Below are positions 1,718 to 17,283 of a stretch of DNA of 64,000 nucleotides, in pieces (the stretch's first letter is position 1; every line of letters starts with the position of its first letter). This DNA comes from Rhodospirillales bacterium. Its GTDB lineage: Bacteria > Pseudomonadota > Alphaproteobacteria > ATCC43930 > CGMCC-115725. The stretch spans positions 1 to 64,000 of the forward strand of contig JAQGIC010000002.1 of the NCBI GenBank assembly GCA_028288725.1. Direction: 5' to 3'. The translations under genes and the position numbers were made by a program. Below the pieces are notes generated by a model that had not been told where the DNA came from, did not search any database, and saw nothing but the letters and a program-made list of their open reading frames with translations.

Positions 1718-3265
1718 TCACTCGGAGGGGAGAATACCGGTGACCAGCCGACGAAACCAGCCCTCGCCGACGAGTGCGGTAATCTGCGCCATGTCGGGCG
1801 CCATGACCCGGTCGCGATCGAGGAAGGAGACCCGCGCGCGAATCGCGCCGAGCGCCTCGGCCAGCCGCGGGCTGGTCTGGAGCGGCGTGCGGAAATCGAG
1901 GCCCTGCGCCGCCGCCAGCAGCTCGATGCCGACGACGACCGCGGCATTCTCCGCCATGCGTCCGACCCGGCGCGCGCCATGGGCGGCCATCGAGACGTGA
2001 TCTTCCTGATTGGCCGAAGTCGGCAGGCTGTCGACGCTGGCCGGATGGGCCAGCATCTTGTTCTCGGCCGTCAGCGCCGAGGAAGTCACTTGGGCGATCA
2101 TGAAGCCGGAGTTGAGCCCCGGTTCGGCGACGAGGAACGCCGGCAGGCCGCTCGACATCTTGGCATCGACCAGCAGCGCCATGCGCCGCTCCGAGATCGA
2201 CCCGATCTCGGCGACCGCGAGCGCCAGCGCGTCGGCGGCAAAGGCGACCGGCTCGGCATGGAAATTTCCGCCCGAGACGATCTCGGCCGTGCCGTCGGTC
2301 TCGTTGCGGAACACCAGCGGATTGTCGGACACGCCGTTCGCCTCGCGGCGCAGCACGCCGGCGGCGTAGCTCATCAAGTCGATGACGGCCCCCATCACCT
2401 GGGGCTGGCAGCGCAGGCTATAGGGGTCCTGCACCCGGTCGCAATCCAGATGGGACGTACGGATTTCCGAGCCGGACAGCAGTTCGGCCAGCTTTTCGGC
2501 GACGAGCATCTGCCCAACCTGACCGCGCACCGCATGGATGCGCGCCTGGAACGGCACGTCGCTGCCCAGCATCGCGTCGACCGACATCGCGCCGGCAACC
2601 ATGCCGGCGGCGAAAGCATTTTCGACGGCAAACAGCCCGGCGAGCGCGAACGCCGTCGAGGCCTGGGTCCCGTTCAGCAGCGCCAGGCCTTCCTTGGCAC
2701 CGAGCGTCACCGGCTTCAGCCCGGCCTTGGCGAGCGCGTCGGCGGCGGCCATGCGCTTGCCCTTGAAGCTGACCTCGCCCTCGCCGATCAGCGGCAGCGA
2801 CATATGCGCCAGCGGCGCCAGGTCGCCGGACGCACCGACCGAACCCTGGGCCGGAACGCAGGGCAGGATGCCGCGGTTGACGAACGCGATCAGCAGTTCC
2901 AGCGTCGAACGGCGCACGCCCGAATATCCGAGGCTCAGGCTGTTGATCTTGAGAATCAGGATGAGCCGGACCAGCTTGTCCTCGAGCAGCGGCCCGGCGC
3001 CGGCGGCATGGGACAGCACCAGATTGCGCTGCAATGCCGCCACGGATTCAGTCGGGATGCGCGTCGTCGCCAGACTGCCGAAGCCGGTATTGACGCCATA
3101 GGTCGCGCGCCCGTTCGCCAGCACCTCGCTGACCGCCTCGGCCGAATGCTCGATGGCGCTCCAGGCATCGTCGGCAAGCCGGATCGGCCGGTTGCTCTCC
3201 AGCAACGCGCGCAGTTCGGCCAGCGACAGGTGCCCCGGAACCAGCTCGAAATGACCGTCGACCAA
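1718..3265 (-). CDS. hutH: Histidine ammonia-lyase
   Basis: A 515-residue lyase that deaminates L-histidine to urocanate without an external cofactor. The Ala-Ser-Gly triad that cyclises to the MIO electrophile is at 145-147 (GSVGASGDLAPL). The catalytic Tyr region YGVNTGFG is at 56-63, and the Ser-His pair in NLVLSHAAGAG (85-86) is typical of histidine rather than phenylalanine or tyrosine lyases. The start is a TTG at 3265, supported by a strong AGAGGAGG about 5 bases upstream. No other hut gene (urocanase, imidazolonepropionase) is nearby; a 2-hydroxyacid dehydrogenase follows instead. Confidence 0.9.
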   Translation of the reverse strand: MVDGHFELVPGHLSLAELRALLESNRPIRLADDAWSAIEHSAEAVSEVLANGRATYGVNTGFGSLATTRIPTESVAALQRNLVLSHAAGAGPLLEDKLVRLILILKINSLSLGYSGVRRSTLELLIAFVNRGILPCVPAQGSVGASGDLAPLAHMSLPLIGEGEVSFKGKRMAAADALAKAGLKPVTLGAKEGLALLNGTQASTAFALAGLFAVENAFAAGMVAGAMSVDAMLGSDVPFQARIHAVRGQVGQMLVAEKLAELLSGSEIRTSHLDCDRVQDPYSLRCQPQVMGAVIDLMSYAAGVLRREANGVSDNPLVFRNETDGTAEIVSGGNFHAEPVAFAADALALAVAEIGSISERRMALLVDAKMSSGLPAFLVAEPGLNSGFMIAQVTSSALTAENKMLAHPASVDSLPTSANQEDHVSMAAHGARRVGRMAENAAVVVGIELLAAAQGLDFRTPLQTSPRLAEALGAIRARVSFLDRDRVMAPDMAQITALVGEGWFRRLVTGILPSE

Positions 3266-3407
3266 GCGCGCCTCCTCTATCCGACCTCAAAATACCCGGT
3301 CGGGACTAGCACGGCGAGACGGCCTAGACAACCATAGACAACCCTAGCCCCGGGGGCACTGCGCCCGATAGCATGGCCACCATTCCGTCAGACCGGATCG
3401 GACGCGA

Positions 3408-3632
3408 TCAGCGCCGCTCGACCATATGGCAGACGCGATGGCGCACCACATGGCGGCCATGCGGTCCGTCGCGCAACACCCTGGCCATGCGGCAACGCCG
3501 GACCATTCGCGCCTGCTCGACCGACTTATGCACGGCGGGGGCGGCATCGATACGGGACGGCGCGGCGTTCGAGAGTTCGGGCGCCAGCAACAGCATCGCG
3601 GCGCCTGTCAGGCAGATCATCATTTTACGCAT
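3408..3632 (-). CDS. Small exported basic protein, unknown function
   Basis: A 74-residue ORF with a convincing Sec signal peptide (MRKMMICLTGAAMLLLAPEL, cleavage near SNAA). The mature part is short and rich in Arg and His with two Cys. A GGGGA ribosome site lies 6-7 bases before the ATG, which favours this frame over the overlapping plus-strand frames. No family is recognised. The Arg/His-rich tail could also come from high-GC sequence read in a poor frame, so confidence is moderate. Confidence 0.5.
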   Translation of the reverse strand: MRKMMICLTGAAMLLLAPELSNAAPSRIDAAPAVHKSVEQARMVRRCRMARVLRDGPHGRHVVRHRVCHMVERR

Positions 3633-3822
3633 CTTGTTCCCCGAGGTTGGATCGCCCGCACGCGAGCGTGACGCTAACGCCGGAAGCGGCGAAACGGCGC
3701 CATGGCAGGAACAATTCGTTGCGTGACCGGTCGGTCCGTTGGGCGCTCAGAGGGGGCGGAAATCTTTCGTATCGAAGGCATCGGTCAAGCAGGAAACCGC
3801 GTCATGAACAAATCCACCGGCC

Positions 3823-4482
3823 CTACTTCACCGGTTCGACCCAGACGTCGCTCTGCTTGATCCGCGCGATCAACTGCGCCGGATCGTATTTACGGAAACT
3901 GCCGGCGATCACGAACAGGCGGGCGGGCTGCGGCGCCTCGACGATGTTCCTGAGCGCGATGATCGCGCCGTCCGCTGTCTGGAACTTGAGCGGGAATTTG
4001 AGCGTGGCGTCGATCCAGCCGGTGCGCTTCACGCCCGTGGGCGATATCATCATCACCTTGACTGCCGTGCGGCCGTCCAGGTCCTCGGACCCGGCCTGTT
4101 CGCATTGCCATTGCCCAGTGGGGTCGCCCGCGACCGACGCCATCGCCTGCCAGCGGACGCACGGGTTCGACGGATCGACCGGGACCATCAGCTCGGTCAG
4201 GATGCTCGATTGCTTCGCATCCATATACAGCCGCTGCATCGGGGCGACGGCGTAGGCCGTGCCCTTGTCGGCATCGACCAGGAACCGGGTGCGGCTCGCC
4301 TCGGTCCGATCGATGCGAACCTTGTCGCCGGCCACGAACAGCTGACCGCCCTCGCCCGGCTCGCGCCGGCTGCCGTCGGCATTGAGATCGACCAGATCGG
4401 CCGAGAATTGCTGCGCGCCGGCCGTCGTGCCGAACAAGGTCAGCCCGCAGACAACGGCAAGCATGATTCTATCGAGATTCAT
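3823..4482 (-). CDS. Exported protein, LolA/DUF4412-like fold candidate
   Basis: A 219-residue protein with a signal peptide (MNLDRIMLAVVCGLTLFGTTAGAQ). The mature part has the pattern of small envelope beta-sheet proteins: FSADLVDL near the N-terminus, GDKVRIDRTE, then YAVAPMQRLYMDAK and VKVMMISPTGVKRTGWID. This resembles DUF4412/LolA-like periplasmic proteins that bind hydrophobic ligands, but the match is by eye. It sits downstream of the exported phosphoesterase gene with a terminator between them, so it probably has its own promoter. Confidence 0.6.
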   Translation of the reverse strand: MNLDRIMLAVVCGLTLFGTTAGAQQFSADLVDLNADGSRREPGEGGQLFVAGDKVRIDRTEASRTRFLVDADKGTAYAVAPMQRLYMDAKQSSILTELMVPVDPSNPCVRWQAMASVAGDPTGQWQCEQAGSEDLDGRTAVKVMMISPTGVKRTGWIDATLKFPLKFQTADGAIIALRNIVEAPQPARLFVIAGSFRKYDPAQLIARIKQSDVWVEPVK

Positions 4483-4503
4483 CGGCAGGCACCTTCCTAG
4501 GTC

Positions 4504-4534
4504 AAAAAAGCCGACCGGCTCGGAGAGCCGGTCG
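4504..4534 (-). terminator. Rho-independent terminator after the phosphoesterase gene
   Basis: The arms CGACCGGCTC and GAGCCGGTCG form a perfect 10-bp stem with a 3-base loop. Read on the minus strand it is followed by six T residues, the classical intrinsic terminator layout. It lies between the stop of the phosphoesterase gene (4560) and the start of the next gene (4482), separating the two transcripts. Confidence 0.85.
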
Positions 4535-4559: not shown

Positions 4560-6632
4560 TTAGATCCGGCCGGGCGACGCGGTCCGGGTCGGGTTGAAAT
4601 TGACCAGATTCGTGATGCGCTTGTCGAAGTCGAACGCGTCGAACAGATCGCCCAGCGCGGGCGAGTTCTTCGGCACGTAAGGATTGTCGGCCTTCTGCAC
4701 CGGATTCGGCAGGTTGTCGCGGCTGCGGCCGGTCAGCGGCTGCAATTTCCAGTTCCGCTCGATGAACTTCACGATCGAAACATGGTCGAAGTAGGTATGC
4801 GTCACCGCGCCGCCGGTCGAATAGGGCGAGACGATGACCAGCGGGATCCTGTTCGAGTCGCCGAAATAATCGATCGGCTGAACGTATCCGCTGTCGAAGT
4901 AGCCGCCGGCCTCGTCGAACGTGATGATGACCGCCGTCTCGGCCTTCAGCTTCGGGTTGGCGTCGAGACGATCGAGAATGTCGCGCACGAAACCTTCGAA
5001 CAGCGAGATCTTGGACGAGGCCGGATGACCGTCCAGCAGCCCGTCGGGCTTGACGAACGATACGGCCGGCAAGGTGCTGCCGGTGATCGCCGTGTCGAGA
5101 TCGGACATGTCCTTCATATGCGCGGTGCGGACCGCCGGGTCGGCCATGATCGACGAGGCATACTGGAACGGGTTGCAGATCTGGCAATAGGCGACGCCGA
5201 TCGCGTCCGCCGGGTCCTGCGCGGCCGCGGCCGAGAGGTTCGGCGCGGTCGGATTCAGCTGCACCGCGATGTTCGAAAGCCGGACGGCCGCATTATAGGC
5301 GCCGCCGTAGTAGGCCCACGAGATGTTCTTGTCGTTCAGCGCGTCGCCGATCGTGCGGACCGGCGACGGCGGCACGGTGCCGGCCCCGGCCGGCGCGCCG
5401 TTCGGCAGGAAGCCCGGGCTGACGTTGTTCAGCATGTAATAATGGTCGGCTTCGCAATTCGTGCTGATGTGCTGGGCGTTCAGGTAAGTGACGATCGGCC
5501 CGACGCCCGGCTGAGAGAAGTCGGCGCATTTGCTGAAATTGCCGTCGACCGTGTACTGGTTGACGGTCTTCTGCCCCGACAGTACCGGGTTCGGATTGGC
5601 GATCATGCTGGCCGGCGTCGGCACGGTGGGATTGCCGTGCCCGTCGGTCCAATAGATGGCGTCGGCGGTGCCGAGCGCTATGTGCTGGACCGCGGTGCCG
5701 CCCCAGACCGACTGATGCATGTTGTCGGCGAGGGTGAAGTTGTTGGCCAGATCGGCCAGGAAGGCCGCGTCCTCGTCCTGGTTGTTGTAGAAGGCCATCG
5801 AGTTGCCGACGCCTTCGTCCACACCGCCCTTGTAGGTCGTCATCACCCAGGGGAACAGGTCCTGCAGACAGCCGGACGGATTGGCCTTCGAGACATGCTG
5901 GGAGTCGGCCGCACAATCCGACTGCTGCCAATTGGTGTAGAAGCGGTGGGTCGTGTCGCCGGTGTAGTCGTCGTCGGTAATGTCCTGATCGGCACCGGCC
6001 GCGACCGACGCCGGCGAGGCATTCGCGCCGCTGATCTGGTACGGGCCGTTCGGAATGCCCGATGCCGCATATTGCGACCGACCGGAAATGCGCGCATCCG
6101 GACCCTTCGGCAGGCCGGTGAAGCCTGTCGTCAGCAGCACCTTGTCGTCCTGTTCCAGGTCCGGCTCGATATTCGCCACGGCCTGGCTGTTGAACGGTGC
6201 GCCGGCGGCGCTCTGTGCCTGCGGCGCACCGTTGGTGTCGGGGCCCGGCAGGGCCGCGAACGGCACCTTCTGGCTTTTGTCGGCGCCGATGAAATAGGTC
6301 TGGTTCTGGCCCGGAACGCTGAACTGCTGAGCCTTTTGGAAGTTCGGACCCGGCGTGCCGTCGGCGTTGATGATGCCCTTGGCCAACAGATTGTCGACCG
6401 CCTGGCCGTGCTTTGCCCGATAGGTCGCGAAGGTATGATCGAATCCGCGGTTCTCGCCAATGACGACGATGACATGCTTGATCGGGCTGGCGGTCTTGAC
6501 CTTGTCCGCCGGATCCTCGTGATGCCCGTTACTCTCCGCCGAAGCGTAACCCGCGCCCGCGAGCGCCACGAGCGATGCGCCCATAACGGCACCCAGTCGG
6601 CGCCGCTTCTGTCTGGTATCAAGATAAGGCAT
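4560..6632 (-). CDS. Exported phosphoesterase (phospholipase C / acid phosphatase family)
   Basis: A 690-residue member of the alkaline-phosphatase-superfamily phosphoesterases (PF04185 type). The signature KHVIVVIGENRGFDHTFATY near the mature N-terminus carries the metal-binding Glu-Asn pair, and a later TFDEAGGYFD segment matches the second metal-binding region. The start is MPYLDTRQ at 6632, because GAGGGGG lies 6 bases upstream; an extension to 6659 would run through that site. The N-terminus (KRRRLGAVMGASLVALAGAG) is a signal peptide, so the enzyme acts outside the cytoplasm, probably releasing phosphate from phospholipids or phosphate esters. The exact substrate is unknown. Confidence 0.82.
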   Translation of the reverse strand: MPYLDTRQKRRRLGAVMGASLVALAGAGYASAESNGHHEDPADKVKTASPIKHVIVVIGENRGFDHTFATYRAKHGQAVDNLLAKGIINADGTPGPNFQKAQQFSVPGQNQTYFIGADKSQKVPFAALPGPDTNGAPQAQSAAGAPFNSQAVANIEPDLEQDDKVLLTTGFTGLPKGPDARISGRSQYAASGIPNGPYQISGANASPASVAAGADQDITDDDYTGDTTHRFYTNWQQSDCAADSQHVSKANPSGCLQDLFPWVMTTYKGGVDEGVGNSMAFYNNQDEDAAFLADLANNFTLADNMHQSVWGGTAVQHIALGTADAIYWTDGHGNPTVPTPASMIANPNPVLSGQKTVNQYTVDGNFSKCADFSQPGVGPIVTYLNAQHISTNCEADHYYMLNNVSPGFLPNGAPAGAGTVPPSPVRTIGDALNDKNISWAYYGGAYNAAVRLSNIAVQLNPTAPNLSAAAAQDPADAIGVAYCQICNPFQYASSIMADPAVRTAHMKDMSDLDTAITGSTLPAVSFVKPDGLLDGHPASSKISLFEGFVRDILDRLDANPKLKAETAVIITFDEAGGYFDSGYVQPIDYFGDSNRIPLVIVSPYSTGGAVTHTYFDHVSIVKFIERNWKLQPLTGRSRDNLPNPVQKADNPYVPKNSPALGDLFDAFDFDKRITNLVNFNPTRTASPGRI

Positions 6633-6831
6633 CTGTTTCCCCCTCAATGGTATCGGCAACGGGGCAAACCTATTTTTTGGATGTGACAGGGTCCGGACAC
6701 TTATATTTCAGCCGATTTTTGACACAGGCGAAAACACCGGCCGAACCTTTTGAAACGCCAGGGTTTCTCTATGTTTTCGTCTTGGAATTCACAGGTTGCG
6801 TCATCTCGCCACATCGCGCTGACCGCGATCG

Positions 6832-8736
6832 TCAGTCGGCGATCTCGGGCGCCCGGCAGATCGGGAAGCGCCCGTCGGGCGACAGGCCCGGCACCAGCTC
6901 GGTCTTCCGGACTGGATCCGCGCCGGCCGGCGGTTCGACGCGCAGCACCGTCATCATGCCGTTGTCCTCATGATCGACCAGATGGCAGTGGACCAGGATA
7001 TCACCGGCCAGCTCCGCTGGAAAATGCATCCGGACCTTGACCTGGCCGGGCACGAGCATCCCGTCGGGATCGACAGAGGCATAGGGCACGGTGACGACAT
7101 CGAGCAGCGGCGGCTCGGGGACGGGTTTGCCGTTGACCTCGATCGTGCGGAAATGAACCTGATGCATATGGAAGGCGTGCAACTCGTTGGTCCAGTTCTC
7201 GACCGTCCATTCCTCGGTCGTACCCGCGTGGGCGGTGATGACCGACGGTGAGCCCATGTCGAACGGCACCAGCTTGGCCCCCGGCTTGCGCTCCACGATA
7301 TAATAGTCGGTCTGATCGTCGGTGCCGGGCCGCGGATATTCGGCGAAGGCGATGACCCGACGCCGATCAGGCTCATGGGCCAGCAATCCGGCGAAATAGT
7401 CCGGCGCGGCGGCAGTAGCCGGCACGGCGCTCGCCGCCACGGATGCCTGCGTAGACGGTACAGCCGTCAGCACCGCGAGCCGGCGCTCCGGCACGATATC
7501 GCCGGAACAGCCGGTATCGACCGCATGGGAAACGAGCGTCGCCTTGGCGCCGGCTTTGGGTGCCGTCACCAGGAACTCCAGACGGCCCGAGGGCGGAACG
7601 AGCTGCGCGGCTCCGGTCGGCGCCGGATGCAGGCGATGGCCGGCATCGTCGGTCAGCGGCGCCCCGTCGCGCGCGACCAGTTCGATCGGCAGCGGCTGGC
7701 CTTGCTCGTCGAGCAGCGCCAGATCGAGGAAGGCATCGGTCGAGGCGTTGAGCACGCGCCAGAGCTGCCGGCTGCCCGCTTCGATCCGGAGCGGCGCCAG
7801 GGCTGCGTCGGGCTGCTGCCGACCATCGAGCACCGGCGCGCCATTCAGCGTCAACTCGTCGACACCGGTCGTGTTGGAACAACCGACTTCATGCTCGGTA
7901 TCGATCGTGCCGCCCAGCTTGCGCGAGCCAGGGCGCTGCGGCGCTCTGGTCGCCGCTGGCAGCGGCGGCGGGTTTTCTTCCATGCCGGCGGCCTCCAGAT
8001 CCGGGACCTGACGGATGACGAAGATCCGATCCTCGATACCCGCGGCGCGGCGGGCATCATCTTCCGGCCCCTCGACCACAATCGGACCGGACAGGCCCAT
8101 CAGCATCTGCGCCTGCACCTCGCCATGAACATGCGGGTGATACCAATAGAGCCCGGCCGGCATGGTCGCAGGGATCTCGTAGCGATAGGTGAAGTCGCGA
8201 TGACCGCAGACCGGCCGGCCGGCCGCCGGATCGGTACAGGTCATCATTACCTCGTCCTGCGGCACTACCGGCGGCACGGCGAAGCCATGGACATGGAGGT
8301 TGGTCAGTCCGGCCGCGTCATGATGCATGCCCGGACGGACCGGATAGATCCCCTTCCTCGCCGGCACGCCATCGTTGGATGTATCGAGTTTGTTGATCGA
8401 CAGAAACCGCGAAACCTGGCTCGGGTCGGTGATCTCGTTCCGGAGTGCTACGGTCATGGTGGCCCCCTGGCGCACCCGCAGCACCGGCGCTTCGGCGTCG
8501 GTGCCGACGACATAGCAGAGGCGTTGCCCGTCCTGCTTCACGGTCAGCGCGACAGGCTGGTCGGCCATAGCGATTTCCGGTGCGAAGGAGCCGCGCGGCG
8601 GCGTGCCGATACCGCAGGGCGCCTCGGCCGTCGAGGTTGGATCGAAGGCGGGCGGATCGCCGGGCGCCGCCCAGGCCAGGCCTGCTGCGCAGAGCGACAA
8701 GCCCGCGATAAGTCCGATCGAAACTGGATGCCGCAT
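6832..8736 (-). CDS. Exported multicopper oxidase
   Basis: A 634-residue cupredoxin oxidase with a Sec signal peptide ending AWAAPG. All four copper-ligand blocks are visible: NLHVHGF (His148 and His150), YWYHPHVHG (His200, 202 and 204), HAFHMHQVHF near residue 535, and VHCHLVDHEDNGMM near 600, which carries the Cys and Met of the type 1 site. These enzymes oxidise phenols, metals or other donors in the periplasm and reduce O2 to water. There is no Met-rich CueO-like insert obvious by eye. It is divergent from a small exported protein gene. The physiological substrate is unknown. Confidence 0.87.
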   Translation of the reverse strand: MRHPVSIGLIAGLSLCAAGLAWAAPGDPPAFDPTSTAEAPCGIGTPPRGSFAPEIAMADQPVALTVKQDGQRLCYVVGTDAEAPVLRVRQGATMTVALRNEITDPSQVSRFLSINKLDTSNDGVPARKGIYPVRPGMHHDAAGLTNLHVHGFAVPPVVPQDEVMMTCTDPAAGRPVCGHRDFTYRYEIPATMPAGLYWYHPHVHGEVQAQMLMGLSGPIVVEGPEDDARRAAGIEDRIFVIRQVPDLEAAGMEENPPPLPAATRAPQRPGSRKLGGTIDTEHEVGCSNTTGVDELTLNGAPVLDGRQQPDAALAPLRIEAGSRQLWRVLNASTDAFLDLALLDEQGQPLPIELVARDGAPLTDDAGHRLHPAPTGAAQLVPPSGRLEFLVTAPKAGAKATLVSHAVDTGCSGDIVPERRLAVLTAVPSTQASVAASAVPATAAAPDYFAGLLAHEPDRRRVIAFAEYPRPGTDDQTDYYIVERKPGAKLVPFDMGSPSVITAHAGTTEEWTVENWTNELHAFHMHQVHFRTIEVNGKPVPEPPLLDVVTVPYASVDPDGMLVPGQVKVRMHFPAELAGDILVHCHLVDHEDNGMMTVLRVEPPAGADPVRKTELVPGLSPDGRFPICRAPEIAD

Positions 8737-8972
8737 CGCTTCGCCCCGCTGTTGGAGGGCTCGTTGCTTAGCGGGGAAAGGCCCCGACGCTTCGTGAATT
8801 TACCATGACAGGCGGTGTTTCGAACCTGGTCGAGTTGCGGCCGATAGGGAGCAATAATCCTTGATCTTCAAATTGTTGGCGCCGATCGGGGTCGTGGCGT
8901 GGCGGCGACATCAAATTTGTCCGTGGCATTTTGTCCCTTCCGATCCGGCGGCAAAGCCGTGATCTTCTCCGA

Positions 8973-9359
8973 ATGAGAATCCTGATCGCTACGGCGCTTC
9001 TAACAGGACTGTTCGCACCGTTGGCGGCGCGCGCGGATTGCGCACCGCCGGCCGAAGGCCCGCCGATGTGCCTGGTCGGCACGATCACGTCACCCGGCTA
9101 TGCCGCCGCCTTCGTCGAGCTGCCCGGCACGACCGGTCTGGAGACGGTGAAGCTCGACGGCCAGGTGCTGGATTGGCACGTGCTGAAGATCGCGCCGCGC
9201 ACAGTTCTGCTCGGGCAAAAGCAGCAGCAGGTCACCCTCACGCTCGATGAACACGCGCCTGCCGACGCGGCCCCGGCCATCCAGGAACAGTCGGAATCGA
9301 TCGCCGCCCAGAGCCAACGGCTGCGCCTGACGCGCAAGCAGCAGCGTCAGCCTTCCTAA
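8973..9359 (+). CDS. Small exported protein, unknown function
   Basis: A 128-residue protein starting MRILIATALLTGLFAPLAAR, a clear signal peptide. The mature part has two Cys near its N-terminus (DCAPPAEGPPMC), a beta-like middle and a Gln-rich, basic C-terminus. I chose the ATG at 8973; a TTG 14 codons upstream would add residues before the signal sequence. It is divergent from the multicopper oxidase gene across about 235 bases in which I see nothing else, and its 3' end abuts the large oxidoreductase gene on the other strand. No family recognised. Confidence 0.62.
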   Translation: MRILIATALLTGLFAPLAARADCAPPAEGPPMCLVGTITSPGYAAAFVELPGTTGLETVKLDGQVLDWHVLKIAPRTVLLGQKQQQVTLTLDEHAPADAAPAIQEQSESIAAQSQRLRLTRKQQRQPS

Positions 9360-9360
9360 C

Positions 9361-12300
9361 TCATTCCGCGGCCGCGGCCGGGCGCCAGCCGATCTGTTGC
9401 AGGCAGCGGTCGATCCACTGCTTGGTCAGCTTCTCCTGAACGCCGTTCTGGCTGAGCCGTGTCTTGAGGCTGGCGAAATCGACCCTGTCCAATGACTGGT
9501 CCTGGTTGAAGCAGGAGAACACGACCGTCTCCGCCCCGGTCGCCGGGTCCTTATGGACCTGCAGGCACTGGGCGCAGATCTCCTTCATCATGCATTGCAT
9601 CGGCGAATTGATGCTGCCGACCGCCTCGTGCCCGGGCTTCAGATAGGACTGCAGCACGCCGTGCCGGGCGCGCGCGACGGCGTTCATCATGCCGTCGGAG
9701 CCGATGGCGACGACACGGTCGACCGCGCCGAACGGGATCGCCGGCACGCCCAGTTCGCCCGCGGCATAGCTCCGCATCGCCTCCACGATATTGCCGACGA
9801 AGCGGCGGTCCTGCGCGCGGCCCGGCTCGAAGCCCGGCCCTTCGTCCGAGCACCAGACGATCAGATCGGCCGCGCGCTCGATTTCGTCCACCTTGTAGCG
9901 GTCGATCATGCGCTTGTAGCCGGCGAAATAGACCACGCGCGAGCCCGCCGCGCGCAGCGCCTGGCCGATCGAGAACAGCACGGCATTGCCGAGCCCGCCG
10001 CCCACCAGAAGAACCGTTTCGCCGGCCGGCGTCTCGGTCGGCGTGCCGGTCGGGCCCATCAGGATGACGGGCTCGCCCGGTTTCAGGAGCGCGCAGAGAT
10101 CGGACGAGCCGCCCATCTCCAGCACGATGGTCGAGAGCAGCCCTCGGCTCTTGTCGACCGAGGCGCCGGTCAAGGCCAGCCCTTCCATGGCGAGCCGCGT
10201 GCCCTCGACCGTCTGGGCACGGGTCTCGTAATTCTGCAGCCGATAGAATTGTCCGGGCTCGAACGCTTGCGCCGCGAACGGCGCCTTGACCGAGACCTCG
10301 ACGATGGTCGGCGTCAGGCGCGTGACCGCATGGACGGTCGGCCTCAGGCCCGCATTCATGGTCCGGGCCAGCTCGGCCGGGGTCGGACCTGCGGCGGTGC
10401 GACGGGCCAGCACGCGGCTGACGGTCGGATAGCCCTGCTTGGCGCTGCCCATGGCCTTCACCACATTGCCGGCGTATGAGGGGTGCAGGTCGCCGAAGAA
10501 GCTGATCGCGCGCCCATCGGAACGCAGGCTCATCAGCACATGCACCGCGTCGGGCTTGGCGCTCTTCTGCGGCGAGACCGGCTGGCCGGTCTCGTCATAG
10601 GCTTGGAAATAGCGGCCATCGAGCACGATATTCAGCGGATCCTCGCGCCCCAGCACCGTGTTCGGCTGAGTTCCGGCGGCGATCAGCACGGTGCGCGCCG
10701 GTAAGGTGACGGTCGCGTCCGACGGGCCGAGCCGGCCGGTCTCGTCGACCACATGCGGCGTCATGACGATGCCCCGCGCCTGGCCCCATTCATCGATCTC
10801 GATCTCGGCCGGCGACAGGCATTCGGCGATGCGGATGCCCTCCTCCAGCGCCAAGGCCACTTCTTCATGGTTGAGCGTATAGCTGGGCGCATCGACCAGG
10901 CGCCGGCGATAGGCCATGGTGACGCCGCCCCAAGCATTGATCAGTTCGATCAGGCGCGGCGCCCGCTGCTCCGCCGCGGCGATCGCACGCTCGGCGCGGA
11001 TCGCCTGGGCGTGGGCGATGAACTCCTCGGCCGCCTCGATCTCGGGCGCGCGCCAGTCGGCCCGCACCGCGTCCATGCCGCGCTCGGCCGCCAGCGTCTC
11101 GTAGCGCGCCAGGAACTTCTCGACCTGGACCGGGTAATAGGCGAGCGACTCCGTCGCCGTGTCGATCGCGGTCAAACCGCCGCCGATCACCACGACCGGC
11201 AGGCGGACCTGCAGGTTGGCGATCGAATCCGGCTTGGCGGCGCCGGTCAATTGCAGCGCCATCAGGAAGTCCGACGCCTGGCGCACGCCCGCCGCCAGGC
11301 CGTTGCGCATGGGAATGACCGTCGGCCGGCCGGCACCGGCGCAGAGCGCCACATGATCGAAACCCAGCTCGAACGCGCGATCGATCGTGAGCGTCCCGCC
11401 GAAGCGCACGCCGCCCATCATGGCGAATTCGCGCCGGCGCTCCAGCAGCAGCCGGATCAGCTTCAGGTAATTCTTATTCCAGCGCACCGTAATGCCGTAT
11501 TCGGCGACACCGCCGAAGCCAGCCATGACCCGGTCGCCCAGATGCTCGTAAAGCTCGCTCACGTCGCGGATCGGACGGAACGGCACCGCCTCGCCCAAGG
11601 CCGAAACGCCGGAAATCCCTTCCTCCAGCGGCTCGATCTTCAAGCCGTCGACCGCGACCACGTGGTGGCCGTCGTTCATCAGGTGATGCGCGAGCGTGAA
11701 GCCGGCGGGACCCAGCCCCACGACCAGCACCTTGTAGCCGCTTTCGGGCCGGGGCAGCGGGCGGCGCAGGTTGAGCGGGTTCCAGCGGGTCAAGAGCCCA
11801 TAGATCTCGAAGCCCCAGGGCAGGTCCAGCACGTCCTTGAGATTGCGCGTCTCGACCTGCGGGATGTCGACCGGTTCCTGCTTTTGATAGATGCAGGATT
11901 TCATGCAGTCGTTGCAGATGCGATGGCCGGTCGCGGCCGCCATGGGATTGTCGATGGTGACGATGGCGAGCGCGCCGACCGCGAACCCGCGCGCCTTCAC
12001 CAGGTTCATCTCCGAGATCTTCTCTTCCAGCGGGCAGCCGGCCAAAGGAACCCCGAACGGGCTCGACTTGAACCCGCCCTCCTTTTCCTTCAGGCCCTTG
12101 GAGCAGCTGTCCTTGCCCTGATTGTGGCACCAGATGCAGTAGTTCGCCTGATCCAGGCCGTGGGCCAGGTCCATGCCCTGGTCGGTCAGGCCGAAGCCCT
12201 CGCGCCGGCGCCAGCGGGCCTCGGGCAGCCGCTGCATCCTGACGCCATCGATCGTCACGGTCTCGACCGGCACCAGATGGGCCGGATCGAGCTTGTGCGG

Positions 12301-12867
12301 CACCTTGAACAGCAGACCGGCCTTATGCCGGGCGCGCCCGGCCTCGCACAGCGTCGCCCATTGGGCGTAGCGCAGGGCCAGATCGATCTGGACGGCATGG
12401 GACGGCTCGTCGGCGGTCCAGCGCTCGACATGGGTGGCGAAGGCGATTTCGGTCAGGCTGTCGCCGATCAGGGCCTCGAGCGCCGCCGCGAGCGCCGGTC
12501 CGTCCAAGGCGGCGGCCTGCTCCGGCGTGACGCCCTTGACCGCGCGGCGCTGCACGAACAGGCGCTTCACCCGATAGAGCGGCGCCAGCGCATCGTGGCC
12601 GGCGCGCAGGGCCTCGAGCTCGGCCCCGATGCCGAACAGCATGCCGATGAAATCATCCAGATGGGGTGCGGCCTCGATCAGCAGCTCCGACTCGTCCTTG
12701 GCGGCGAGCGCGTCGGGTGCCGCCCGGGCGGCCATCAAGCGGTTGAACAGGTCGGGCGCTGCCCCTTTGAGGCGGTCCGTGAATGCCTGGTCCAGGCGGA
12801 CGAGGCCATCGCGCCGATAAAGATCCTCGAAAGTCAGGCCGAAGCCCAATGCCAGCGTGGTCCGCAT
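9361..12867 (-). CDS. Fused flavin/iron-sulfur oxidoreductase: GltD/NfnB-like plus DHODB/NfnA-like domains
   Basis: A 1168-residue protein. Residues 1-235 are an unrecognised helical domain. Cys244, 247, 255, 278, 318, 321 and 325 suggest [4Fe-4S] binding, and the last segment (CNDCMKSCIYQKQEPVDIPQ) aligns by eye with the N-terminal cluster region of GltD/NfnB. A first dinucleotide fold starts at VVGLGPAG (382-389) and a second at VVVIGGGLTAID. After about residue 860 comes a ferredoxin-reductase-type module like PyrK/NfnA (EPGQFYRLQNY, then VGGGLGNAV). It ends with Cys1092, 1098, 1101 and 1119 in the [2Fe-2S] pattern of dihydroorotate dehydrogenase B subunits. These are the parts of NADH-dependent ferredoxin:NADP oxidoreductase (NfnAB) in one chain. 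The reaction is inferred. Confidence 0.75.
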   Translation of the reverse strand: MRTTLALGFGLTFEDLYRRDGLVRLDQAFTDRLKGAAPDLFNRLMAARAAPDALAAKDESELLIEAAPHLDDFIGMLFGIGAELEALRAGHDALAPLYRVKRLFVQRRAVKGVTPEQAAALDGPALAAALEALIGDSLTEIAFATHVERWTADEPSHAVQIDLALRYAQWATLCEAGRARHKAGLLFKVPHKLDPAHLVPVETVTIDGVRMQRLPEARWRRREGFGLTDQGMDLAHGLDQANYCIWCHNQGKDSCSKGLKEKEGGFKSSPFGVPLAGCPLEEKISEMNLVKARGFAVGALAIVTIDNPMAAATGHRICNDCMKSCIYQKQEPVDIPQVETRNLKDVLDLPWGFEIYGLLTRWNPLNLRRPLPRPESGYKVLVVGLGPAGFTLAHHLMNDGHHVVAVDGLKIEPLEEGISGVSALGEAVPFRPIRDVSELYEHLGDRVMAGFGGVAEYGITVRWNKNYLKLIRLLLERRREFAMMGGVRFGGTLTIDRAFELGFDHVALCAGAGRPTVIPMRNGLAAGVRQASDFLMALQLTGAAKPDSIANLQVRLPVVVIGGGLTAIDTATESLAYYPVQVEKFLARYETLAAERGMDAVRADWRAPEIEAAEEFIAHAQAIRAERAIAAAEQRAPRLIELINAWGGVTMAYRRRLVDAPSYTLNHEEVALALEEGIRIAECLSPAEIEIDEWGQARGIVMTPHVVDETGRLGPSDATVTLPARTVLIAAGTQPNTVLGREDPLNIVLDGRYFQAYDETGQPVSPQKSAKPDAVHVLMSLRSDGRAISFFGDLHPSYAGNVVKAMGSAKQGYPTVSRVLARRTAAGPTPAELARTMNAGLRPTVHAVTRLTPTIVEVSVKAPFAAQAFEPGQFYRLQNYETRAQTVEGTRLAMEGLALTGASVDKSRGLLSTIVLEMGGSSDLCALLKPGEPVILMGPTGTPTETPAGETVLLVGGGLGNAVLFSIGQALRAAGSRVVYFAGYKRMIDRYKVDEIERAADLIVWCSDEGPGFEPGRAQDRRFVGNIVEAMRSYAAGELGVPAIPFGAVDRVVAIGSDGMMNAVARARHGVLQSYLKPGHEAVGSINSPMQCMMKEICAQCLQVHKDPATGAETVVFSCFNQDQSLDRVDFASLKTRLSQNGVQEKLTKQWIDRCLQQIGWRPAAAAE

Positions 12868-13065
12868 ACCGGTCGAAGCCTCCCCAAGCCGTTCCCCGTA
12901 CCGACGACGCCGAGCTTGTCACTCTGTTGGCCGTCGGTACGCCGGGAATGACTGTGCGCCAAGCCGTGCGGGCGATCAAGGGTGATCGTTTGTATACGAA
13001 TGATATCGGCTTTCGGGGGCAATATTCGGATAGCGAATGCGCCGTCCCGGCGCCACACTCCGCCC

Positions 13066-13998
13066 ATGACCTCCGCTTCGCCCAATCCGCTCCGCATGGG
13101 GCCGACCGAGTGGCTGCTCCTGCTGGCGCTTTCGACGCTCTGGGGCGGCTCGTTCTTTTTCTTCAAGCTCCTGGTCGAAACCCTGCCGCCCTTCACCATC
13201 GTGTTGGGCCGGGTCGGCATCGCCGCCGTGGCGTTGAACCTCTATCTGCTCGCCCGGCGCGATCCGATGCCGACGGCGCCCGCCACCTGGCGCGCGTTCC
13301 TGATCATGGGGCTGTTGAACAATGTCGTGCCCTTCACGCTGATCGTGTTCGGCGAGACCAGGATATCGAGCGGTCTCGCCTCGATCCTGAACGCGACGAC
13401 CCCGGTGTTCGGCGTGCTGACCGCGCATGTCCTGACCGCGAACGAGAAATTGACTTGGACCCGCGGCGCGGGCGTGCTGTTCGGATTCGCCGGGGTCGCG
13501 GTGCTGATCGGACCGGATGCGCTGGCGGGCCTCGGTACGCAGGATCTGGCCGGCGAGCTGTCCTGCCTCGCCGCCGCCTTCATCTATGGCCTGGCCGGGC
13601 TCTACGGCCGTCGCTTCAAGGGCATTCCGCCGCTGAAGGTCGCGACCGGCCAGATCACGGCCAGCACCTTGGTGCTGCTGCCGCTCGCAGGCCTGGTCGA
13701 GCGACCCTGGGCCCTGCCCATGCCGGACGCGACCACCTGGGCCGCCCTCACCGGCATCGCGCTGTTGAGTACGGCGCTGGCCTATATGCTGTATTTCCGC
13801 ATCCTGGCCGTCGCCGGCGCCACCAATCTGCTGCTGGTGACCTTCCTGCTGCCGATCAGTGCGCTGCTGCTCGGCTGGCTGGCGCTCGGCGAGCGGCTGG
13901 CGCCCGGCACCGTGCCGGGCATGGCGATGATCGGGCTTGGGCTCGCCTGCATCGACGGACGGCTGTTGGAACTGTTTCGACGGCCCAGCGCGGCCTGA
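13066..13998 (+). CDS. EamA/DMT-superfamily membrane transporter
   Basis: A 310-residue inner-membrane protein with two EamA repeats of five predicted helices each. The typical first helix is WLLLLALSTLWGGSFFFFK, and the second repeat begins near LAGLYGRRFKG. The start at 13066 (MTSASPNPLRMGPTEW) avoids an upstream stretch of poor, non-membrane sequence. The family exports or imports amino acids, nucleotides or other metabolites; the substrate cannot be read from the sequence. It appears to be a single-gene unit. Confidence 0.85.
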   Translation: MTSASPNPLRMGPTEWLLLLALSTLWGGSFFFFKLLVETLPPFTIVLGRVGIAAVALNLYLLARRDPMPTAPATWRAFLIMGLLNNVVPFTLIVFGETRISSGLASILNATTPVFGVLTAHVLTANEKLTWTRGAGVLFGFAGVAVLIGPDALAGLGTQDLAGELSCLAAAFIYGLAGLYGRRFKGIPPLKVATGQITASTLVLLPLAGLVERPWALPMPDATTWAALTGIALLSTALAYMLYFRILAVAGATNLLLVTFLLPISALLLGWLALGERLAPGTVPGMAMIGLGLACIDGRLLELFRRPSAA

Positions 13999-14016: not shown

Positions 14017-15711
14017 TCAACCGGCGCGGATCTTGGCGAAGAAGCCGCTCACATCCGTGCGCAGCTTGTCGGCCTGACGGCCGAGTTCGTCGGCGGACTG
14101 GAGCACCTGCGTCGCGGCCGATCCGGTCTCGTCGGCCGCCTGGTTGACGCCGGCCACATTGGCCGAGACTTCCGCGGTGCCGCGCGCCACCGATTGGATA
14201 TTCTGGGCGATGTCGCGGGTGGCCGCACCCTGCTGCTCGACCGCGGCCGCGATCGCCGACGCGATCTCGTTCATATGGCGAATGGTGCCGCCGATCCCCC
14301 TGATCGCCTCGACCGCATGGCCGGTCTCGCCCTGGATGGCGGTGATCTGGGCCGAGATATCCTCGGTCGCCTTGGCGGTCTGGTTGGCGAGCGCCTTGAC
14401 CTCGCTCGCCACGACGGCGAAGCCCTTGCCGGCCTCGCCGGCCCGCGCCGCCTCAATGGTGGCGTTCAACGCCAGTAGGTTGGTCTGCGACGCGATGCTC
14501 TGGATGAGCGTCACCACTTCGCCGATTTTCTGCGCCGTCGCGGCCAGGCCCTGAATGGTGGCGTTGGTGCGGTCGGCCTCCACGACGGCGGTGTTGGCGA
14601 TCTCGGCCGACTGCGTCACCTGGCGCGAGATCTCGTTGATCGAGGAATGCAGTTCCTCGGTCGCGGCCGCCACGGTCTGCACGTTCGCCGACGCTTCGTC
14701 CGAGGTCGCGGCGACGGCCGTGGCCTGTCGGCTGGTCTCCTCGGCCGTCGCCGCCATGCTCTCGGCGGTGGCGTGCATTTCGGTCGAAGCGGCCGTCAGC
14801 GTATCGAGCGCCTCGCGCACCTGCTCGTCGAATTCGGTGATGGAGCCTTCGAGCGCCTGCCGTCGGGCTTCCTTGCGCAGATGCTCCTCTTGCTGCTCGG
14901 CTTCCAGGCGCCGCGCCGTCACCGCGTTTTCCCGGAACACCTGGAGCGAGCGGGCGAGGCCGCCGATCTCGTCGGCGCGCTGGGCGCCTTCGATCTGGAT
15001 GTCCAGATCGCCCGCGGCGAGCTTGGCCATCTCCCGCGTCATGCGCGCGAGCGGCTTGCTGATCTGATAGAGCGCGATCCAGCCGAGAATGCCGAAGGCG
15101 CAGACGAGGCCGGCGGCGGCACCGACCACGAGCCACGCCCGGGTGCCCTCGGCCGTCACGATGCTCGCGTCGCGCGCGGTCCGCATCTTCTCCACGTTGA
15201 GGGCGATGAGCTTGCCGACCGCCTCGATGGCGATGCGGCGAAACGGTGCCGCTTCGCCGGTCGAATAGGCGAAGGCCTCGGCGGTCTTGCCGGCGATGGC
15301 CAGCTCGAAGACATGGGCGCTCGCCTTGCGCCGGTTGCCGACGGCGGTGCGGAACGTGTCGGCGAGGGCCCGCTGATCCGGCAAGGGCGTAATCGCATCG
15401 AAGCTGTCGATCGCCTTGAGCGTCGCGACTATCGCTTTGTCGTAGAGTTCGATATTCGTCTTCGCCATCTTCTCGTCGGGGCTGAGGATGACGTTCTTTT
15501 CGCTCACCGCCGCGCTGTTGAAGCTGCTTTCGGCCTGGAGCGCCAGTTGCACCCGCGTGGCATTCTCGTCGACCAGCGCCGTCGCGGTGTCGGACAGATG
15601 GGTTACCGCCAGCGAGGCATAGAGCACGATGCCGATCGACACGACCGCGACGATCGTCGCCGGCACCGCAATCTTCGAAATGATCGTCAAGTTGCGAAAG
15701 TTGAGAGACAT
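14017..15711 (-). CDS. Methyl-accepting chemotaxis protein
   Basis: A 564-residue chemoreceptor. A first membrane helix (residues about 12-34) is followed by a roughly 150-residue all-helical periplasmic sensor of four-helix-bundle type. A second helix (VVGAAAGLVCAFGILGWIAL, about 193-212), a HAMP segment and a long coiled coil follow. The signalling tip is the conserved SQTNLLALNATIEAARAG...GFAVVASEV. The start is the ATG at 15711, with GGAG upstream; the frame stays open further back but there it is antisense to trmFO. No cheA or cheW gene is in the window, so it probably works with a chemotaxis array encoded elsewhere. The ligand is unknown. Confidence 0.93.
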   Translation of the reverse strand: MSLNFRNLTIISKIAVPATIVAVVSIGIVLYASLAVTHLSDTATALVDENATRVQLALQAESSFNSAAVSEKNVILSPDEKMAKTNIELYDKAIVATLKAIDSFDAITPLPDQRALADTFRTAVGNRRKASAHVFELAIAGKTAEAFAYSTGEAAPFRRIAIEAVGKLIALNVEKMRTARDASIVTAEGTRAWLVVGAAAGLVCAFGILGWIALYQISKPLARMTREMAKLAAGDLDIQIEGAQRADEIGGLARSLQVFRENAVTARRLEAEQQEEHLRKEARRQALEGSITEFDEQVREALDTLTAASTEMHATAESMAATAEETSRQATAVAATSDEASANVQTVAAATEELHSSINEISRQVTQSAEIANTAVVEADRTNATIQGLAATAQKIGEVVTLIQSIASQTNLLALNATIEAARAGEAGKGFAVVASEVKALANQTAKATEDISAQITAIQGETGHAVEAIRGIGGTIRHMNEIASAIAAAVEQQGAATRDIAQNIQSVARGTAEVSANVAGVNQAADETGSAATQVLQSADELGRQADKLRTDVSGFFAKIRAG

Positions 15712-15924
15712 TTTTTCATCTCCGTACTGGCCTTGCCGAAGACTGGCGCCCAACTGTTTAAAATCCGATGTAATTTGATACTTGTCCCGGGACAGGAAAT
15801 CACCGGACGCGTCCTGGGCGATCACACCGCCCGCAACGCCGACCTGCGGCCGTTCCGGCTGCCCATCGGCGCCCCGATCGCGTAGAATCGTCCGCTCTAT
15901 CGATGTTTTAAGGTGGTTGGAACG

Positions 15925-17283
15925 ATGGTCGAATTTCGCCCGGTGCATGTGATCGGCGGCGGTCTTGCCGGCAGCGAGGCCGCTTGGCAATTGGCCGCGG
16001 CGGGCGTGCCGGTCGTGCTGCACGAGATGCGGCCGATCCGCAAGACCGAGGCGCATCAGACGCAAGGGCTGGCCGAACTGGTCTGCTCCAACTCGTTCCG
16101 CTCCGACGAGCCCCTGACCAATGCGGTGGGCCTGCTGCATGAGGAGATGCGACGCTCCGGCTCGCTGATCCTGACCGCGGCCGACAAGCACAAGGTGCCG
16201 GCCGGCGGCGCGCTGGCGGTCGACCGCGACGCGTTCTCGGCCGAGGTCGAGGCGGCGCTGACGGGTCATCCCCTGGTCACCATCGCGCGCGAGGAAATCG
16301 CGGGATTGCCGCCGGCGGATTGGGACAGCGTCGTGGTGGCGACCGGGCCGCTGACCTCGCCGGCCCTGGCCGAGGCGGTGCTGGGTCTGACCGGCGAGGC
16401 GTCGCTGGCCTTCTTCGATGCGATCGCACCGATCGTCCATACCGAATCGATCGACCTCGATGTCGCCTGGTTCCAGTCGCGCTACGACAAGCCCGGCCCC
16501 GGCGGCACCGGCAAGGACTACATCAACTGCCCGCTCGACCGGGACCAGTACTTTGCCTTCATCGAGGCGCTGCAGGCCGGCGAGAAGACCGAATTCAAGG
16601 AATGGGAGCAGAACACGCCCTATTTCGAGGGCTGCCTGCCGATCGAGGTCATGGCAAGCCGCGGCGCCGAGACGCTGCGCTGGGGCCCGATGAAGCCGAT
16701 CGGGCTCACCAACAGGCACAATGGTTCGAAGCCCTACGGCGTGGTCCAGTTGCGCCAGGACAATCGGCTGGGCACGCTCTACAACATGGTCGGTTTCCAG
16801 ACCAAGCTGAAGTATGCCGAGCAGGTCCGGATCTTCCGCACGATTCCCGGCCTGGAAAAGGCCGAGTTCGCGCGCCTGGGCGGGCTGCATCGCAATACTT
16901 TCCTCAACAGCCCCAAGGTATTGGACGGCCAACTTCGCCTGAAATCAGATCCGCGCCTGCGCTTCGCCGGCCAGGTCACCGGCGTCGAGGGCTATGTCGA
17001 GTCCGCCGCGATCGGGCTGGTTGCCGGGCGCATGGCCGCGGCCGAGCGCAAGGGCGGCCTGTTGAATGCCCCGCCGCCGACCACCGCGCTGGGCGCACTG
17101 GTCGCCCATATCACCGGCGGCGCCGAGGCCGAGACGTTTCAGCCGATGAATGTGAACTTCGGTCTGTTCCCGCCGCTCGCCGACGTGCCCAAGGCCAAGG
17201 CCGAGCGCAAGCCGGCGATGGCCCGCCGGGCGCTGGCCGATCTCGACGGCTGGCTCGGCGTCACCCGCGCCGCCGCCGAGTAG
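15925..17283 (+). CDS. trmFO: Folate/FAD-dependent tRNA (uracil-54-C5)-methyltransferase TrmFO
   Basis: A 452-residue flavoprotein that methylates U54 in the tRNA T-loop using methylenetetrahydrofolate and NAD(P)H. The FAD-binding signature [17 protein letters not shown] is at the N-terminus, followed by the family-specific [13 protein letters not shown] and [20 protein letters not shown]. The ATG at 15925 is preceded by AAGGTGG; a GTG four codons earlier is the alternative. It is transcribed alone, divergent from the chemoreceptor gene and convergent with the PrpF-family gene. Confidence 0.95.

Follow-up and report, generated by a model that had tools for sequence, protein, structure and literature searches.

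The window analyzed here, 64,000 nucleotides of contig JAQGIC010000002.1 from a Rhodospirillales bacterium, contains a gene for a 1168-amino-acid protein that resembles, within one chain, both subunits of NfnAB, the NADH-dependent ferredoxin:NADP oxidoreductase (Table 1). For both halves of the protein, the sequence matches in the PDB were Xfn/NfnI of Pyrococcus furiosus and NfnAB of Thermotoga maritima. Together with the predicted fold, these matches bore out a reading made earlier from the DNA letters only (the sequence-only reading), that a GltD/NfnB-like part and a PyrK/NfnA-like part are joined in one polypeptide. The protein had a single match in the 5.5-Mb host genome (E ≤ 0.001), its own gene, and the reading frame had no inner stops, which, with near full-length matches in 80 named contigs, ruled out a one-off artefact or a frameshift fusion. 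The gene is a real, conserved variant of the Nfn kind, and seemingly an uncharacterized one.

Pfam recognized only Pyr_redox_2 above its cut-off, with Fer4_20 as a weak match. The best NCBIfam model was NF005128/PRK06567 (762.6 bits), and the match included the N-terminal part, beginning at residue 6. The segments matched (2-678, 735-923, and 963-1029 of 1031 model positions) were collinear and made up nearly the whole model, and in a distant member of 1035 amino acids (L094) there was one continuous match to model positions 2-1026. The score of the window protein lies below the curated cut-off of NF005128, 1072 bits, which was exceeded in none of the 385 genomes of the host's class. The model is titled 'putative bifunctional glutamate synthase subunit beta/2-polyprenylphenol hydroxylase'. 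A tested function behind this title was not found, and searches of the open-licence literature gave no papers on PRK06567 or on the product names of the model.

Table 1. Features of the Nfn-like gene and of the genes around it in the window
Feature	Position	Strand	Basis or remark
Whole gene, single-chain Nfn-like oxidoreductase (PRK06567-like)	9361..12867	-	1168 amino acids, open reading frame from ATG
N-terminal part, residues 1-235	12163..12867	-	Mostly residues 13-180 (approximate) helical; unmatched in Pfam and the PDB; family-conserved
NfnB/GltD-like double [4Fe-4S] domain, residues 236-340	11848..12162	-	C244, C247, C255, C278, C318, C321, C325, E339
NfnB/GltD-like FAD and NADPH Rossmann domains, residues 376-826	10390..11742	-	GLGPAG 384-389, GGGLTA 562-567, YRR 653-655; Pyr_redox_2
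R462, probably equivalent to the FAD N5 arginine of NfnB	11482..11484	-	Invariant; alignment gap there
Helical insertion in NADPH domain, residues 577-645	10933..11139	-	Alignment and predicted structure
NfnA/PyrK-like FAD/NAD and [2Fe-2S] half, residues 838-1168	9364..10356	-	PDB sequence matches, Foldseek, alignment
[2Fe-2S] ligands C1092-x5-C1098-x2-C1101-x17-C1119	9511..9594	-	Cys where NfnA has Asp
Multicopper oxidase, two Cu-oxidase domains above cut-off	6832-8736	-	Next gene but one to the Nfn-like gene
Short open reading frame, 128 amino acids, signal-peptide-like start	8973-9356	+	No Pfam match; its end lies within a few bases of that of the Nfn-like gene, opposite strand
Phosphoesterase-family protein, 674 amino acids	4563-6584	-	Pfam PF04185
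Chemotaxis receptor (4HB_MCP_1, HAMP, MCPsignal)	14017-16932	-	971-amino-acid open reading frame; first recognized domain about 410 residues in

Cofactor sites, predicted fold, and known relatives

Conservation of the cofactor sites was followed in an alignment of 68 rows and in a second alignment of 117 rows, which included distant members and a few fragments, while a MAFFT alignment placed the window protein beside three NfnB, two GltD, and two NfnA sequences. The seven cysteines and the glutamate for two [4Fe-4S] clusters aligned with those of NfnB, in which the glutamate is the ligand of the proximal cluster. Cysteines 244, 247, 255, 278, 318, 321, and 325 and Glu339 were invariant in the 68 rows, as was Cys1119 of the [2Fe-2S] site, and the other cysteines of that site (1092, 1098, and 1101) were conserved in at least 90% of the rows. 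All eleven cluster cysteines of the two halves were 96-97% conserved in the 117 rows. This ligand conservation agrees with the [4Fe-4S]-type cysteines and the [2Fe-2S] motif of the sequence-only reading, and corresponds to ligands for two [4Fe-4S] clusters and one [2Fe-2S] cluster. The second [4Fe-4S] motif has C-x2-C where NfnAB has C-x5-C, and the C-x7-C and C-x2-C spacings depart from the published motif.

The YRR motif of the NADP site of NfnB was present in the alignment with the three NfnB and two GltD sequences, and the threonine of the a-FAD strand was retained as T900 in that with the two NfnA sequences. R462, invariant in the 68 rows, lies near the position at which the three NfnB have arginine and the two GltD have lysine. 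HMMER paired it with the arginine of FRLPK, MAFFT left a gap, and the structural model was weak at the adjacent residues 449-458. Judged from these alignments, R462 is probably the counterpart of the NfnB arginine that we take to lie at N5 of the flavin. An insertion of about 65 residues in the NADPH domain (about 577-645) was absent from the three NfnB sequences, while the two GltD had some residues there that could not be clearly matched to it. The four-cysteine [2Fe-2S] site resembles that of PyrK, the dihydroorotate dehydrogenase B subunit, in what are presumably also four cysteine ligands. The aspartate signature of NfnA, DGTGMCGxCRx10CV, in which the aspartate ligand is credited with a potential of +80 mV (Liang 2019, PMC6405883), is absent from the window protein. 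A [2Fe-2S]-type site is nevertheless present, and a cysteine one residue further away seems, from the alignment, to take the role of the aspartate.

The AlphaFold2 model of the 1168-residue protein had a mean predicted local distance difference test (pLDDT) score of 86.1 and a predicted template modelling (pTM) score of 0.89, with residues 449-458 and 733-735 under 50. The top match in VIA-align was the large subunit of NfnI (5jfc_L; Z 26.7, root-mean-square deviation 2.8 over 445 residues at 25% identity, model residues 186-822), tied with 5vj7_A (Z 26.1), and small subunits of glutamate synthase were close behind (2vdc_G and 7mfm_I, Z 25.1; 6s6t_E, Z 24.8). In Foldseek the C-terminal half matched 5jca_S, with a template modelling score of 0.85 of the target and a deviation of 3.8. 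The model thus superposed on both NfnB (5jfc_L) and NfnA (5jca_S), a comparison that the sequence-only reading had proposed as a check, and the overall folds of both subunits are matched by the predicted structure. The FAD/NAD domain also had the fold of PyrK (5ksw_B, Z 14.2 in VIA-align); the window protein differs from PyrK in its C-x5-C spacing and in its fusion to an NfnB-like half. An NfnB-like core is shared with the large subunits of StnABC and NfnABC (8oh5, 9bov, and 9n5u), but those are larger chains with other domains and are parts of multi-subunit complexes.

The closest characterized likeness is to NfnAB itself (T. maritima 4YLF; P. furiosus 5JCA and 5VJ7), with which the window protein shares the seven cysteines and glutamate, the YRR motif, the FAD/NAD domain, a [2Fe-2S] site, and a superposing fold. 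NfnAB consists of two subunits, whereas the window protein is one chain with the NfnB part first, to which are added a 235-residue N-terminal part and the helical insertion in the NADPH domain, and it has cysteine for the [2Fe-2S] aspartate. The sequence-only reading held that a fused bifurcating enzyme in such an organism would be notable, yet the order of the fusion is already in print. Fused Nfn homologues called 'Pattern C' have been described from Alpha- and Gammaproteobacteria and Actinobacteria, with Mobiluncus curtisii ADI67453 as the example; their NfnA part is C-terminal, they have about 200 extra residues, and they are uncharacterized (Liang 2019, PMC6405883). Like the window protein, they are single chains with the a-FAD, NAD, and [2Fe-2S] parts C-terminal, a comparison that is with the published description only. 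They are described there as 'around 200 residues longer' than fused proteins of the Clostridium/Bacteroidaceae type, with a gene of 2,274 bp as one case, suggesting a length of about 950 amino acids against 1168 in the window protein. Pattern C may therefore correspond to the PRK12779 type (944 positions), which matched the window protein weakly, rather than to the family described here.

The N-terminal part was conserved across the family when taken alone in the 68-row alignment, and was also kept in members without linkage to sulfur genes. A 250-residue model of it was mostly helix (pLDDT 88.8, pTM 0.73). A profile search of the PDB gave one match at chance level (E 0.5), Foldseek gave none at E ≤ 0.001 (27 at E ≤ 10), and the best Z among 60 chains in VIA-align was 4.1. 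The missing PDB relative does not prove a new fold for this predicted domain. The statement that residues 1-235 match nothing held for Pfam and the PDB, but not for the family, in which they are conserved, nor for NF005128/PRK06567. The domain is accordingly not new in the sense of being private to the window protein: it belongs to an existing, uncharacterized NCBI family. No discussion of it was met in the excerpts of the cited Nfn literature.

Distribution and gene linkage of the family

Matches to NF005128 were found at E ≤ 1e-3 in 115 of the 385 genomes of the host's class. Members were counted at E ≤ 1e-60, which gave 87 positive genomes; the 28 with weaker matches were counted as negatives, among them at least two (G144 and G221, with short frames) that may hold fragments of true members. 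Among the best 80 of at least 569 matches, relatives at 64-74% identity were on contigs titled Alphaproteobacteria, Betaproteobacteria, Gallionella, Nevskia, Acidobacteria, Planctomycetes, and, in one case, Anaerolineae, and a further relative, at 45.9% identity, was on plasmid pTcM1 of Acidithiobacillus caldus. A 97-row tree was inferred by a quick method, with one row per 80% lineage and labelled rows preferred. The window protein fell within a set of 24 rows (support 98) that were alphaproteobacterial, acidobacterial, planctomycete, and in one case Nevskia; this mixture of phyla suggests transfer between them or partly mislabelled bins. Two contigs of environmental metagenome-assembled genomes (L067 and L078) are titled Bordetella parapertussis. 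L067 grouped with other environmental Betaproteobacteria in the tree, from which L078 was absent, and these labels therefore look doubtful.

The host genome had four matches to heme-copper oxidase subunit I (COX1) and a gene for heme A synthase (COX15), so respiration with oxygen is likely. COX15/CtaA was searched in 80 of the 87 positive genomes, those with fragmentary family genes (G032, G099, G119, G127, G129, G223, and G354) being left out, and was found in 73. NfnAB is an enzyme of anaerobes, whereas the members of this family are in presumed aerobes; a survey has placed Nfn almost only in anaerobes, with one aerobe named (Poudel 2018, PMC6085437). The earlier proposal of a fused bifurcating enzyme in a presumably aerobic alphaproteobacterium is therefore upheld in its fused architecture and in the oxidase and heme A synthase genes of the host; bifurcation is less certain, and the [2Fe-2S] aspartate ligand of NfnA is a cysteine here.

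Neighbouring genes were surveyed at 142 loci, of which 134 were distinct at 97% identity and which represented 82 lineages at 75%. Genes were called with a home-made codon-usage gene finder and grouped by BLAST similarity, and names from hidden Markov models (HMMs) were given to group representatives only. This grouping divided FdxA, and one locus (L114) was included manually on the basis of its annotation. The loci are not independent, because linkage is inherited.

Genes for sulfate assimilation or siroheme reductases were within four genes of the family gene at 19 of the 142 loci, in 14 of the 82 lineages. At 17 loci from 12 lineages they were upstream, on the same strand, and within three genes, with the nearest such gene at most 209 bp away in 15 of the 17. 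Within six genes, this linkage was seen at 14 of 60 loci fetched from the class genomes (60 of the 87 positive) and at 6 of the 80 named loci. Nine of the 19 loci carried cysH, cysN, or cysD, as in L136, where the order is cysI-cysG-cysH-cysD-cysN followed by the family gene; at the other ten, the linked genes were limited to a siroheme reductase, a siroheme-synthase-like gene, or both. Seven linked siroheme reductases were compared with models: three (L136, L120, and L157) were of the CysI type above the cut-off, and four (L022, L066, L142, and L052), two of them beside cysH, scored between the NirA (nitrite) and CysI (sulfite) models.

COX15/CtaA was within 5 kb of the family gene in 25 of the 73 genomes holding both, from 15 families, and was immediately divergent in 18, from 11 families. 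This is a fairer figure than the 35 of 142 loci (16 lineages) with COX15/CtaA within four genes, which is inflated by regions chosen partly because COX15 had already been seen near. A ferredoxin gene, RsxB-like or FdxA, was within two genes at eight loci, including A. caldus pTcM1, and the most frequent other neighbours reached five lineages. The sulfur label changed 8 times on the tree against a shuffled mean of 15.0, and the COX15-only label 10 times against 12.4, indicating that neither linkage is a single event.

The 14 sulfur-linked genomes contained no full-length CysJ (TIGR01931 had no match in 11 and a partial or weak one in 3, and exceeded its cut-off in none of 22 genomes searched). 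The host has a CysI-type sulfite reductase above the cut-off, a CysJ match that is only partial and flavodoxin-sized, and an Fpr-like gene (178.5 bits, under the cut-off of that model). Plant-type Fpr was present in 10 of the 87 positive and 70 of the 298 negative genomes (Fisher p 0.016, with no correction for relatedness). Strict replacement of Fpr by the family enzyme was rejected, as this is only a weak trend and the host itself has both.

Proposed role and alternative explanations

The architecture, ligand conservation, predicted fold, distribution, and gene linkage together point, with moderate rather than high confidence, to an Nfn-type NAD(P)H:ferredoxin oxidoreductase, made as a single chain, that serves biosynthesis in aerobes. 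NADPH would reduce the flavin of the NfnB-like half. One electron route would run from there over the two [4Fe-4S] clusters and end at a small ferredoxin, for which FdxA and the RsxB-like protein are candidates; the opposite route, in the NfnA-like half, would use the [2Fe-2S] cluster and the second flavin to reach NAD(H). Enzymes supplied by this ferredoxin would include, above all, heme A synthase and a siroheme sulfite (or nitrite) reductase working without a CysJ flavoprotein, and our guess for the N-terminal helical domain is that it docks either the ferredoxin or some partner.

To our knowledge, the electron donor to CysJ-less assimilatory sulfite reductase is an open question, as is that to bacterial heme A synthase, and the open-licence literature yielded no papers tying Nfn to either enzyme. 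The linkage to siroheme reductases and COX15 makes this Nfn-like family a concrete candidate donor for both. The new findings are the frequency of the family in the host's class and the linkage of its relatives to genes whose products probably use ferredoxin. Yeast Cox15 receives electrons from the ferredoxin Yah1 and the reductase Arh1 (PMC7140478), so the COX15 linkage would be meaningful if the bacterial enzyme works alike. A bolder proposal, which is at present unlikely, is that these proteins are widespread electron-bifurcating enzymes of aerobes with the dedicated task of reducing a low-potential ferredoxin, both for heme A synthesis and for the assimilatory reduction of sulfite. They would then replace CysJ as well as the reductase that supplies ferredoxin to Cox15 in mitochondria, and the helical domain would be a new partner-docking domain.

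Several observations weigh against a ferredoxin-reducing role in these pathways. Neither kind of linked gene, nor a ferredoxin gene within its two-gene limit, was found within four genes at 89 of the 142 loci. The window locus has none of them either, its neighbours being the 128-residue open reading frame and an EamA transporter, then the multicopper oxidase and the chemotaxis receptor. COX15 was further away or on another contig in 48 of the 73 genomes, and 7 of the 80 positive genomes had no COX15 match, two of them incomplete (G071, 82% complete, and G305, 76%); an exclusive link to heme A synthase is ruled out by these seven. The products of cysD, cysN, and cysH do not use ferredoxin, so the sulfur linkage is in part one with the pathway and not with the reductase. 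Since 10 of the 19 linked loci have none of these three genes, nitrite rather than sulfite is possible for part of them, and some of the linked reductases may, from their model scores, reduce nitrite; as nitrite and sulfite reductases of such kind are both likely ferredoxin users, this leaves the probability of the proposed role unchanged. That plant-type Fpr was found in none of the 14 sulfur-linked genomes (E ≤ 1e-15) favours the role, but the search behind this did not extend to the thioredoxin-reductase-like and adrenodoxin-reductase-like types. The host has its Fpr-like gene and a separate GltD-like gene, which makes the family enzyme one candidate ferredoxin reductase among others in this genome. 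Loss of the aspartate ligand, as read from the alignment, speaks against the standard energetics of bifurcation.

Within the proposed role, two modes of action have to be weighed. In a simple, non-bifurcating reductase or NADH/NADPH hub, a fused diaphorase-transhydrogenase with a PyrK-like [2Fe-2S] site, the four-cysteine ligands would find their place, and NADPH is already reducing enough for linked users such as sulfite reductase; two flavin domains and a full double [4Fe-4S] arm, with its glutamate in all 68 rows, nevertheless exceed the needs of a simple reductase, and this mode is judged close to an even call. A true electron-bifurcating or confurcating Nfn, in which NAD+ takes the high-potential and ferredoxin the low-potential electron, is a serious possibility that falls somewhat short of even. 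The cofactor sites of NfnAB are present, the YRR motif and T900 are kept, and R462 is probably the N5 arginine, which is described as conserved in all Nfn (Liang 2019, PMC6405883), although the structural model has low confidence right beside it. Replacement of the +80 mV aspartate ligand by a cysteine with one extra residue would likely lower the potential of the [2Fe-2S] cluster, and so weaken the exergonic branch.

In a further alternative, no free ferredoxin would take part, and the N-terminal helical domain would pass electrons directly to an acceptor enzyme, a siroheme reductase or some other. Directly upstream, at gaps of about 90-130 bp, there are genes for siroheme reductases or siroheme-synthase-like proteins, and the domain has no Pfam or PDB match, but its presence in members without sulfur linkage and the ferredoxin genes that adjoin other members make this improbable. 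That the protein is a glutamate synthase small subunit is suggested by the title of NF005128 and by the closeness of 2vdc_G and 6s6t_E to NfnI in the structural comparison. The genes flanking it in the window are not gltB, the host has a better GltD candidate at C106 (492 amino acids, 409 bits, under the cut-off of 447.7), the YRR motif and probably R462 follow NfnB and not the two GltD aligned, and an NfnA/PyrK-like half is fused to it. This identity was rejected on the flanking genes, the C106 candidate, and the fused half, and can hardly be correct.

Observations at individual loci

Of the genes near the family gene in the window (Table 1), the chemotaxis receptor probably has a later true start than its open reading frame, as the first recognized domain lies so far in. 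On A. caldus pTcM1 (L114, NC_010600.1), positions 5659-13333 encode a GntR regulator, a fumarate-reductase-type flavoprotein, a 4Fe-4S protein, a HEAT-repeat protein, and FdxA, with the family member at the end of the row, a possible plasmid-borne redox pathway. In L065, L068, L072, L081, L085, and related betaproteobacterial loci, a pyrD of the quinone type is upstream and an RsxB-like ferredoxin gene directly downstream of the family gene. Around loci of this type there are also genes that we take to be aat-, bpt-, and nth-like, named from their sequence by recall rather than with HMMs. In L146, a two-part protein encoded at 2147-4528 (-), with a C-terminal half named by eye as aminomethyltransferase-like, adjoins a siroheme-synthase-like gene and occupies the place where other loci have the siroheme reductase.

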